This document shows positions 5,312-41,501 of a DNA stretch of 64,000 bases, in pieces. Source of the DNA: Terricaulis silvestris. GTDB lineage: Bacteria > Pseudomonadota > Alphaproteobacteria > Caulobacterales > Aquidulcibacteraceae. Every line of letters begins with the position of its first letter. Position 1 is the stretch's first letter. Where the stretch lies: positions 1,178,001 through 1,242,000 of the forward strand of contig NZ_CP047045.1 in NCBI RefSeq assembly GCF_009792355.1, read 5' to 3'. The notes below the pieces were generated by a model, which saw nothing but the letters and a program-made list of their open reading frames with translations, had not been told where the DNA came from and did not search any database. A program made the position numbers and the translations under genes.

Positions 5312-5464
5312 TGCGTCCATCCCTTGCTGAGGGTTGCTGTTGGACGCGATTTTAGGCTGTCGCCTCACGGGGCAATCGCGGCGCCCCTTAGATCGGATGA
5401 CACCACCGCGCGCGCCGCACGTCAAGCATGACGAGATCGACGGCTTGTGGTGAGGTCCGCCCGC

Positions 5465-6385
5465 ATGAGTCTGAAGGACAAGATCAAGGCGCAGGTCGCC
5501 GTGTTCGATGCTTGGGCGCGGCCGTGGGCGGACAAGTCCAAGCTGCGTGGCTGGGCTTATGAGTTCCTGCTGTTTGGGCTGAAGCAGGCTTGGGCGTGCC
5601 TGTTTGGCGGGCTGATGCTGGCGTTGTTGGTCGGTACGCATTTGTTCTGGCCGGAGAACGCGCCGATCGCGCGGTATGATTTTCTGGTGCTGGCTTCGGT
5701 TGCGATCCAGGGCGCGCTGTTGGCGACCAAGCTGGAGCGGTGGGACGAAGCTGTCGTCATTCTGATCTTTCACGTCGTCGGCACCATCATGGAAATCTTC
5801 AAGACGGCGCATGGGTCTTGGATCTATCCAGAAGAGAGCGTGCTGCGCATCGGCGGCGTGCCGTTGTTCTCTGGGTTCATGTATGCGTGCGTCGGCTCGT
5901 ATGTGGCGCGGGCGATGCGGTTGTTTGAGATCAAGTTCGTCGGCTATCCGCCGTTGTGGACGACTTGGGTTCTGGCGCTTCTCGCGTACGTGAACTTTTT
6001 CACCCACCACTACATCATCGATATCCGGCTTGGGCTGTTTGCGTTTTCGGCGTTGATCTTTTGGCGGACGTGGTTCGTGTTCACGCCGGATAAGAAGCCG
6101 CGCTTCATGCCGATGCTGGTGGGCTTGTTGCTGGTGTCGCTGTTCATCTGGTTTGCGGAAAACCTTGGCACGTTCGCGGCGGCTTGGGTTTATCCGAGCC
6201 AGCAGGATGGCTGGCATGTCGTGCCGATCGAGAAGATGGGCGCTTGGTATTTGCTGATGTTACTGAGCTTTGTGCTGGTGACGCTGGTGCATAAGCCGGA
6301 GGCGTTTGAGCGCGCGGATTCGTCCGCCACCGGCGAGACGCCGGCGGTCCAAAATGGAGGGCGGAGACGCGAGGAAAGCGCCTAG
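5465..6385 (+). CDS. DUF817 family integral membrane protein
   Basis: A 306-residue protein with about eight hydrophobic segments beginning near residue 27 (AWACLFGGLMLALLVGTHLF) and a polar, charged C-terminal tail. The motifs GTIMEIFKTAHGSWIYPE and WFAENLGTFAAAWVYP are the signature acidic/aromatic stretches of the DUF817 family. The function of the family is not established. The ATG at 5465 is preferred to a GTG at 5447 because only the former is preceded by a spaced TGAGG. A hairpin at 6400-6419 (arms GCGCTGAAT/ATTCAGCGC) follows 15 bases after the stop and may help end the transcript. Confidence 0.85.
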   Translation: MSLKDKIKAQVAVFDAWARPWADKSKLRGWAYEFLLFGLKQAWACLFGGLMLALLVGTHLFWPENAPIARYDFLVLASVAIQGALLATKLERWDEAVVILIFHVVGTIMEIFKTAHGSWIYPEESVLRIGGVPLFSGFMYACVGSYVARAMRLFEIKFVGYPPLWTTWVLALLAYVNFFTHHYIIDIRLGLFAFSALIFWRTWFVFTPDKKPRFMPMLVGLLLVSLFIWFAENLGTFAAAWVYPSQQDGWHVVPIEKMGAWYLLMLLSFVLVTLVHKPEAFERADSSATGETPAVQNGGRRREESA

Positions 6386-6770
6386 ATTAGTTCTTTAGTG
6401 CGCTGAATGGATTCAGCGCCGACGCTTCGCTCGCGTCTCCGATGATCTGCTGCGCCGGCTCCGCGCAAGGAGGTCTTTCACTCCTCTGGTCAGTGCGCCG
6501 GTGGCGTGCGGGTTTGTGCTGTTCGCACAAGGCCCCGGTCTCGCTCCTCGCGGTTTCTATCCCGCGGGCTTCTGCTGTTGATGCGATACGCTGGACTTAA
6601 GAGGCTCGTTTTCGCCCTCTGGGCCGTGGCGCCTTCTCCGGTCGCTTGGAGAAGCATCAGAGCATCACGCTCGATCACCTCGCTTCGCGTTGGTTGAACA
6701 GAGGATCCAACTGCCCTCCATGCGAAAGCGATGGGGGATTGTAGCGCGGTGTGCGGGCGGTCGGATTGAA
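6386..6770. other. 385-bp gap with several hairpins, no gene recognised
   Basis: No convincing open frame spans this gap. It holds several stable inverted repeats: GCGCTGAAT/ATTCAGCGC at 6400-6419, an AGGAG/CTCCT hairpin near 6470-6486, a TTGTGC/GCACAA hairpin near 6514-6530, and CTTCTCC/GGAGAAG near 6631-6655. They could be remnants of repeat elements like the ones that follow, or an unrecognised structured RNA. I could not match it to tmRNA, 6S, RNase P or SRP RNA. Confidence 0.3.
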
Positions 6771-6834
6771 TCCCTTCTCCCCCGCGAGGGGGAGAAGGTG
6801 GCCGAAGGCCGGATGAGGTGGGCGAGCCTCAGAA
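6771..6834 (+). repeat. left inverted arm of the DUF559 element
   Basis: The arm starts TCCCTTCTCC and ends GAGCCTCAGAA. Its own strong hairpin (11-bp stem, loop GCGA) is followed by GGCCGAAGGCC. Its reverse complement recurs at 7209-7274 with two one-base insertions. Confidence 0.85.
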
Positions 6835-6842
6835 AACGGCGC

Positions 6843-6848
6843 TATAAT
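6843..6848 (+). promoter_or_regulatory. -10 box (TATAAT) of the DUF559 gene
   Basis: A perfect TATAAT lies inside the element, with its last base 10 bases before the ATG at 6859. Transcription would therefore start at or next to the start codon, giving a leaderless mRNA; no Shine-Dalgarno sequence is present. No good -35 hexamer is visible at the usual distance, where the left arm ends. Confidence 0.5.
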
Positions 6849-6858
6849 CAACGCTGCG

Positions 6859-7203
6859 ATGCGAAACTACGACTCTATTCAGCGGGCTAAACGCAACCGC
6901 AAGGACAGGACCAGTTCGGAGGAAAGGCTCTGGTCAATCCTCCGGAGTGGGCGATATCGCGGCATCAAGTTTCGACGCCAGCATGCGATTGGGCCGTATG
7001 TGGTCGACTTTGCGTGCGTGGCGCGGCGGTTGGTGATTGAGGTCGATGGGCCATCGCACGATGACGAGGAGCAACGCGCGTTCGATGCGCAACGCACAGC
7101 ACTTCTGGAGCGGTCAGGTTGGCGGGTGGCGCGGATACCGAACGCGGCGGTGTTCGATCGTGAGGGCATATTTCTGAGTTTGGATGAGGTGGTGGGGCCT
7201 TAG
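6859..7203 (+). CDS. DUF559 domain protein, predicted restriction-like endonuclease
   Basis: A 114-residue protein that is almost entirely a DUF559 domain, related to very-short-patch-repair endonucleases of the PD-(D/E)XK fold. Visible landmarks are SSEERLWSILR near residue 19, FRRQHAIGPYVVDFACVA near 38 and LVIEVDGPSHDDEEQRAFD near 58; the Glu, Asp and Glu-x-Asp in these are the expected metal-binding and catalytic residues. The biochemical role of the family is not settled. The gene sits alone between inverted REP-like arms with its own -10 box and no Shine-Dalgarno, so a role in moving or maintaining these repeats is a reasonable hypothesis, not shown. Confidence 0.88.
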   Translation: MRNYDSIQRAKRNRKDRTSSEERLWSILRSGRYRGIKFRRQHAIGPYVVDFACVARRLVIEVDGPSHDDEEQRAFDAQRTALLERSGWRVARIPNAAVFDREGIFLSLDEVVGP

Positions 7204-7208
7204 CTTTA

Positions 7209-7274
7209 TTCTGAGGCTCGCCCACCTCATCCGGCCCTTCGGGCCACCTTCTCCCCCTCGCGGGGGAGAAGGGA
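7209..7274 (-). repeat. right inverted arm of the DUF559 element
   Basis: This is the reverse complement of 6771-6834 apart from two extra bases in the small hairpin (GGCCCGAAGGGCC against GGCCGAAGGCC). It ends eight bases before the stop codon of the next, convergent gene, so it may also act as a bidirectional terminator. Confidence 0.85.
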
Positions 7275-8984: not shown

Positions 8985-9170
8985 TCCCTTCTCCTGGTTA
9001 AGGAGAAGGTGGCCGCGGAGCGGCCGGATGAGGTTTGCTGCGCTATCCGGAAAGAATGTGCGTTTCATTCTGATGAGCCGGTAAACCTCACCCGTCGTTC
9101 GCTTCCGCCTTCGCTAAAGCTACGGCGGACAAGCCGCGAACGGACACCCTCTCCCTAACCGGGAGAGGGA
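8985..9170. repeat. REP-like palindromic element without a gene
   Basis: A 186-bp inverted-repeat element. The left end forms CCTTCTCC/GGAGAAGG followed by GTGGCCGCGGAGCGGCCGGA and TGAGGTTT. The right end, read on the other strand, forms a similar hairpin (TCCCTCTCCC/GGGAGAGGG) followed by GGGTGAGGTTTAC. The centre has its own AGAATG/CATTCT stem. The order of parts (hairpin, GTGGCC palindrome, GATGAGG) matches the arms of the DUF559 element 1.7 kb away. It ends 13 bases before the serpin stop codon and may terminate that transcript. Confidence 0.7.
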
Positions 9171-41400: not shown

Positions 41401-41501
41401 TCCCTCGCCCCGCAACGCGGGGGAGGGGTTGGGGAGGGGGAAATACACTGTCCCCCTCCCGTCGCTTCGCGACACCCTCCCCCGCTGTGCGGGGCGAGGG
41501 A
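41401..41501. repeat. palindromic repeat between convergent genes
   Basis: A 101-bp palindrome with 27-bp arms (41401-41427 and 41475-41501; two mismatches) starting TCCCTCGCCCCGC and ending GCGGGGCGAGGGA. An inner GTCGCTTCGCGAC hairpin lies near 41461-41473. It exactly fills the space between the lipoprotein stop and the arfB stop, so it may terminate both transcripts. It is a different family from the 6.8-kb element. Confidence 0.75.

Follow-up and report, generated by a model that had tools for sequence, protein, structure and literature searches.

We found in Terricaulis silvestris a YcjD/DUF559 nuclease gene that lies exactly between two inverted repeat arms, and this arm-gene-arm unit is probably a minimal chromosomal mobile element, bounded by two cognate ends that resemble BoxC repeats, also called potential intrastrand triplex (PIT) elements. 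The window, that is the whole stretch of 64,000 nucleotides analysed, corresponds to C1:1178001-1242000 of the single-contig 3.86-Mb host genome. The unit had been noticed earlier from the letters of the window (hereafter the original prediction), and its features are as follows (window coordinates, strand).

6771-6834, plus strand: left arm, 64 nt, read from outer to inner end, the inverted partner of 7209-7274
6773-6798, plus strand: left-arm hairpin 1, an 11-bp pyrimidine/purine stem with loop GCGA
6800-6810, plus strand: left-arm hairpin 2, GGCC-GAA-GGCC
6811-6821, plus strand: left-arm tail GGATGAGGTGG, which mirrors the purine strand of hairpin 1 (mirror match 0.91) and is a potential third strand
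6859-7203, plus strand: DUF559 gene, 114 amino acids, Vsr-like PD-(D/E)XK nuclease
7209-7274, minus strand: right arm, 66 nt, inverted
7222-7232, minus strand: right-arm mirror-repeat tail, the sequence of 6811-6821 on the opposite strand
7233-7245, minus strand: right-arm hairpin 2, GGCCC-GAA-GGGCC
7247-7272, minus strand: right-arm hairpin 1

The arrangement agreed with the original prediction, in which a 114-residue gene fills the gap between arms of 64 and 66 nt that differ by two one-base indels. The arms are complementary in perfect blocks of 33 nt and 28 nt, broken by one-base indels, and hairpin 1 reads CCTTCTCCCCC-GCGA-GGGGGAGAAGG with 11 bp. The two arms aligned with 104 bits (E 9.6e-23 in a search of the host genome), and the hairpin pattern CCYTCTCCN{2,16}GGAGARGG had 35 copies in the 3.86-Mb genome against 0 for the reversed-pattern control; therefore the arm pairing is not due to chance. 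Dinucleotide shuffles folded less well than either arm (z -4.07 left, -3.58 right). Thirteen pyrimidine/purine hairpins were counted in the 64-kb window, compared with 6-11 in shuffled windows. The unit is bounded by terminal inverted repeats, as insertion sequences and miniature inverted-repeat transposable elements are.

The open reading frame of 114 residues matched Pfam DUF559 (PF04480) with 105.5 bits, compared with a curated cut-off of 20.6, so the protein is a PD-(D/E)XK enzyme and not a Y1 transposase, as had been proposed. Residues R14, E21, D50, F51, E61, D63, G64, H67, D76 and R92 are invariant across 40 DUF559 sequences, and judged from this alignment they form a predicted nuclease-type core. 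The nearest solved fold was PDB 3HRL (YcjD/DUF559), followed among the nearest by I-Bth0305I and Vsr, with which the protein shares 21-29% identity across the fold; it has the Vsr-type catalytic fold of the Vsr-like homing endonucleases. A single-sequence AlphaFold model was poor (predicted local distance difference test score 57). By sequence and fold the protein belongs to the YcjD/DUF559 family, for which Pfam gives the function as unknown, and the association with repeats is a difference that is new as far as we searched. I-Bth0305I-type enzymes have a role in introns and Vsr has one in repair; the window gene shares their fold and instead stands free between its own arms. The closest relatives by protein in named genomes were from Hyphomonadaceae and from metagenome-assembled genomes of Caulobacterales (among the best 80 of 589 confirmed matches).

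Eight DUF559 genes were found in the host genome. Six of them scored as arm-flanked, mostly with arm sequences of their own; the arms of one gene (L009) are divergent by eye, and another (L008) has hairpins on one side only. Nine of the 35 pattern hairpins are at most 500 bp away from a DUF559 domain and adjoin four of the eight genes. Among the remaining 26, 18 make nine gene-less doublets (starts 97-160 bp apart) and 8 are solitary. Many solitary arms had been expected; the host has many single arms and gene-less doublets, relatives have them too, and the arms are not confined to this locus. Inverted doublets with many gene-less copies are also the organisation of repetitive extragenic palindromic (REP) sequences and their REP-associated tyrosine transposases (RAYTs). 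The arm families correspond to particular DUF559 genes. The doublet at 1834316/1834442 is 83-88% like the arms of the window unit, and those at 2399443 and 1186987 resemble the arms of the gene at 3569389. One of these lies in the window, and the doublets at genome 2399443 and 3569721 are related to it:

8987-9169, no strand: gene-less inverted doublet (genome 1186987) of a different arm family, which is found around the DUF559 gene at genome 3569389, with hairpins at 8987-9009 and 9147-9169

DUF559 genes were flanked by arms in other genomes too. For the pairing score, which is independent of orientation, the left flank (350 bp) was aligned locally to the reverse-complemented right flank (350 bp). 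The first set held 58 loci (8 from the host, 30 from the best phylum matches and 20 hand-picked from DUF559-rich alphaproteobacteria), and 35 of them scored at least 20 (6/8, 14/30 and 15/20, respectively); flanks shifted by 600 bp gave 0/58 and mispaired flanks 36/600. For the genus set, 60 genes were read of 76 matches, from 18 genomes, and 47 of the 60 scored at least 18 (shifted control 0/59). The named set consisted of the best 80 of the 589 confirmed matches, 77 with both flanks, and partly overlapped the genus set. Here a matched arm pair (score at least 18) was found at 52 of 77 loci, with 0/65 in the shifted control; by taxon label, 39/57 loci from Proteobacteria sensu lato and 13/20 from other or unnamed phyla had such a pair. 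Some of these genomes are metagenome-assembled and may be mis-binned: the arms of L284, labelled Sumerlaeota, are nearly identical to those of the host. An isolate case beyond Pseudomonadota is L316 of Prevotella conceptionensis (pairing score 34.5). When only hairpins were counted (stem of at least 8, one strand at least 85% pyrimidine), 75 of the 77 named loci had a pyrimidine/purine hairpin within 350 bp, 56 on both sides and 19 on one side, and the 2 with neither still have an alignment-matched pair. At the 65 named loci with a control, at least one hairpin was present in 65/65, compared with only 8/65 after shifting the flanks by 500 bp. These counts mostly bear out the expectation that orthologues are flanked by arms. 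Among 50,697 phage records 2 had relatives, and among 72,556 plasmid records 44; carriage by phages or plasmids was therefore rejected, and these genes look mainly chromosomal.

The gene and the hairpins also occurred together across genomes. In one draw of 299 Pseudomonadota genomes, with a strong DUF559 match defined as E <= 1e-10 and hairpin-rich as at least 5 pattern hairpins, 60 genomes had both, 20 only the gene, 15 only the hairpins and 204 neither (odds ratio 41; p 3e-31, which is optimistic because the genomes are related). Within family f11, DUF559-positive genomes had 16-90 hairpins and the negatives 0, 2 and 8; family f4 was looser (1-175 versus 0-34). The same four counts were 36/138/39/86 for Y1_Tnp (odds ratio 0.58) and 25/43/50/181 for Vsr (PF03852; odds ratio 2.1, p 0.016), and within the DUF-positive and DUF-negative strata neither had an effect (Y1 odds ratios 0.875 and 0.68). 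Vsr was rejected as driver, since its weak overall association disappears within the strata. The gene could also be a passenger, only carried along while a RAYT or other transposase mobilises the arms. The doublets are organised in a REP-like way, and RAYT genes are described as sitting between GTAG REPs or other inverted repeats (retrieved text of PMC3733652), but we consider this explanation very improbable, as no Y1_Tnp profile match was found in the host genome and Y1 was not associated with hairpins overall or within strata. A RAYT as driver was rejected on these two grounds; non-Y1 transposases were not searched for. The comparison with RAYTs drawn in the original prediction thus holds for the logic of the unit and not for the involvement of a RAYT.

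The units occupied different genomic sites. Cross-genome pairs of the genus at 60% protein identity or more had no detected shared flank in 65 of 81 cases (the flanks compared extended over at most 700 bp, and over less near the end of a contig, which may have hidden some sites in common), and the relatives of the window gene at this identity were at other sites in 7 of 7 cases. Arm similarity followed protein identity between genomes of the genus (rho 0.444); within-genome permutation gave 0.084 +/- 0.067, and 0 of 1000 permutations reached the observed value. For pairs without a shared flank, rho was 0.415 against 0.082 permuted (0/1000), and the closest protein at a different site carried the most similar arms of its genome in 182 of 227 cases (76.1 expected). 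Among 12 places in relatives with arms of the window family, 8 were gene-less doublet loci (one with two doublets), 2 were single arms and 2 had a DUF559 gene. From such comparison of sequenced genomes we infer that the unit is mobile.

The main rival explanation is homing, in which arms or doublets pre-exist as targets, the nuclease cuts gene-less arm sites and the gene is copied in by homologous repair. It gains some credit from the resemblance of the fold to that of a homing endonuclease. However, genes were present at sites where relatives show no arm, and the 65 of 81 close pairs without detected shared flank point in the same direction. Downstream of the gene that neighbours the unit (window 5447-6385), the pattern hairpin was present in 0 of 24 congeners within 1.45-1.5 kb (141 bp in one), although some pyrimidine/purine hairpin occurred within 700 bp in 3 of 24. 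Homing by itself makes no new doublets. We regard it as unlikely, though deserving serious consideration. In one congener (L136, G450) the region downstream of the 5447-6385 orthologue contained a GCTCCCCCGTAAACGGGGGAGC hairpin and a second hairpin, like the arm family of host gene L009.

The nuclease could also be a host or repair enzyme, which processes fold-prone repeats, is kept nearby for regulation or protection and does not move them. Its Vsr-like fold agrees with this, as do the link of the Caulobacter protein VsrA with DNA damage (retrieved text of PMC12907096) and the instability of BoxC sites in E. coli (retrieved text of PMC4666352). The explanation is improbable considering that genomes carry several of these genes (the host has 8), most of which have arm sequences of their own, that the flanking is exact and that relatives' copies are at unrelated sites.

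The same slot was found in different states when empty and filled sites were compared, as had been suggested. The slot between fabI and aroC was searched in 119 genomes of one family (that of G241); 30 loci were read and 25 were readable on both sides. DUF559 sequence lay between arms in 5 of the 25 (confirmed by tblastn, one a partial match). One locus each had a single arm, two hairpins without gene, an arm with a degraded partner, and an arm beside another repeat; the slot was at most 10 bp in 8 and had other content in 8. Only a few bases separate the arms from the stop of fabI and the start of aroC, and hence the arms are the ends of the unit. In L105, L112, L113, L117 and L127 the slot also has several unrelated-looking stretches, and it may therefore be a general insertion hot spot; the slot repeats of L104 and L112 look like CGTC REPs by eye. 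The site of L014 was searched in 30 congeners including the host, where 25 loci were read and 20 were readable. Two of the 20 were filled and 18 had no pattern hairpins; three of the latter were 1, 13 and 19 bp, and many had other sequence. L014 (G000) and L227/L239 (G465) share one intergenic site with genes 83% identical in amino acids, but their arm-gene-arm units have opposite orientations relative to the flanks.

The arms had been described as REP-like. Their organisation is, and yet in repeat type they are nearer to the BoxC/PIT triplex repeats than to GTAG REPs, as their hairpins are followed by a tail mirroring the stem. Among 97 left arms of the genus and named sets, 90 had a tail long enough for comparison with their own purine stem. 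The mean best mirror match was 0.823 and at least 0.85 in 50 of the 90, whereas shuffled tails gave a mean of 0.679 (3.7% at or above 0.85) and tails from arms with other stems 0.733 (17%). Of 80 distinct arms long enough to contain a second hairpin, 65 had one (shuffled 17%), and the conserved second hairpins had 24 distinct stem sequences; therefore the fold is conserved and the letters are variable.

The BoxC/PIT/TM_ECO repeats have in common with these arms a pyrimidine/purine hairpin with a mirror purine strand after it, a partial occurrence as inverted doublets, an intergenic location and presence in many bacteria. The window arms differ in having a second hairpin where BoxC has a 3-nt second loop: the left arm reads CCTTCTCCC, in which a 12-nt linker containing hairpin 2 replaces the N3 of the BoxC consensus, and the strict consensus CCCTCNCCCN3-6GGGNGAGGGN3GGGNGAGGG is not fitted by the window arms. 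Knowledge of these repeats in E. coli dates from the 1990s, and a close motif is present in more than 260 genomes; the retrieved text of PMC4666352 reports no function or mover, its authors found no mobility gene or functional class near the copies, and that text ties the repeats to no gene class.

With REPs, REP doublets forming hairpins (REPINs) and RAYTs the unit shares inverted doublets of short palindromes, a dedicated gene within the pair, many gene-less copies and a mainly chromosomal location. In contrast, its enzyme is a Vsr-like PD-(D/E)XK nuclease and a RAYT is a Y1 HUH transposase; the gene between the arms is DUF559, the arms have a mirror-repeat tail, and direct reading of 6771-6834 and 7209-7274 revealed no GTAG tag at the hairpin foot. 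The logic of the unit is that of REP/RAYT systems, though it lacks their Y1 enzyme and GTAG tag. CGTC REPs, according to the retrieved text of PMC3733652, are mainly alphaproteobacterial, mostly doublets and said to be without dedicated transposase; they have an AT-first stem of 8-9 bp, a CGTC-type tag and a CCA tail, a description that the window arms do not match.

Ordinary terminators or mRNA-protecting hairpins, standing beside the gene by chance, would agree with the host arm copies that we read, which are largely intergenic-looking hairpins. This explanation is scarcely credible, as the two arms of a unit are cognate to each other and go with the protein clade, shifted flanks gave zero, the tail mirrors its own stem, and PIT elements had no promoter or terminator activity in earlier work cited in the retrieved text of PMC4666352.

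E. coli K-12 has 23 listed BoxC/PIT/TM_ECO copies, among them five inverted doublets (retrieved text of PMC4666352). We found that TM_ECO 9 lies between fabI and ycjD (L254, 1351204-1351760), that ycjD is a DUF559 gene (167 bits), and that a degenerate BoxC copy touches its stop codon. The E. coli control genome gave no PF04480 match although K-12 ycjD scores 167 bits, and that genome may lack ycjD. The gene is variable: 3,333 of 5,426 E. coli genomes contain at least 80% of the K-12 region, in agreement with the retrieved text of PMC12817139. Three BoxC doublet sites also vary among strains: some strains show a partial deletion and others lack the doublet, without a clear duplication. Copies like TM_ECO 9 were present in 5,357 of the 5,426 genomes (median 14 per genome, range 1-26). 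In strain elppa9 the best match to the ycjD region is limited to its fabI part, yet this strain has 11 such copies; with this case and the spread of copy numbers, no conclusion can be drawn from E. coli copy number. Among the openly licensed PMC papers searched, none was found that links DUF559 to BoxC-like repeats.

Considering these results, we propose that arms made single-stranded during replication or repair may fold as a hairpin and potential triplex and that the Vsr- and homing-endonuclease-like nuclease would recognise this fold and cut or nick at the arm, leaving the host to finish the copy by repair or replication. REPINs are thought to be moved by RAYTs, and by analogy the gene-less arm pairs may be non-autonomous copies moved in trans. 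The claim of a self-contained, repeat-spreading unit gains support from the gene-less copies and the flanked orthologues. The results suggest that the DUF559 family spreads a repeat that had no previously known mover.

Several observations weigh against a mobile element of this kind. Matched pairs were missing at 25 of the 77 named loci, and the enterobacterial loci L287, L318 and L319 had no matched pair and a hairpin on one side only. Of the 75 hairpin-rich genomes, 15 had no strong DUF559 match. An overlooked gene in these exceptions was sought with a family-member profile and rejected: nine of the 15 genomes gave matches at E <= 1, which were weak throughout (best 2.1e-7), and the five strongest lie within open frames of at least 585 codons. 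Orphan repeats therefore exist. The contrary evidence named in the original prediction, unflanked orthologues and arms in genomes without the gene, does occur in part. Conversely, no more than 4 pattern hairpins were counted in 20 of the 80 genomes with DUF559; in the DUF559-rich G259, with zero pattern matches, cognate arms of a different sequence were present at both loci read. Both BoxC copies of K-12 lie on one side of ycjD, so that locus is not a clean unit. A unit travelling as a whole would give the correlation of arms with proteins by linkage, and therefore this correlation indicates co-movement and not binding. The site comparisons gave no clean target-site duplication, the genomes being diverged or the alleles otherwise different. 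Caulobacter VsrA, another DUF559 protein, is tied in the retrieved text of PMC12907096 to DNA damage in methylase mutants and not to repeats, and no biochemistry of a DUF559 protein on such arms was found.

To our knowledge, no member of this nuclease class is known to transpose by itself. A bolder statement, which we hold to be evenly balanced between true and false, is that a lone Vsr-like DUF559/YcjD nuclease with intrastrand-triplex-forming ends may constitute a categorically new, phylum-spanning selfish element, copying itself and many gene-less BoxC-type repeats in trans, without transposase, integrase or HUH chemistry. A nuclease-only mechanism would make the element a new class, and should the nuclease spread the repeats unaided, the system would be REP-like but built on a different enzyme class. 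A link between BoxC/PIT and DUF559 would account for both at once, and it is testable in E. coli K-12 with ycjD and the listed copies.

In the window, a separate repeat of about 414 bp (6356-6769) abuts the arm-gene-arm unit on the left. Its other copies are at genome positions 985651 and 3170794, with partial ones at 1834569 and 321524, and it is present in relatives too. Two copies of this repeat are close to BoxC-like hairpins. Three clustered pyrimidine/purine hairpins at window 41402-41500 are possibly another doublet of the same class.
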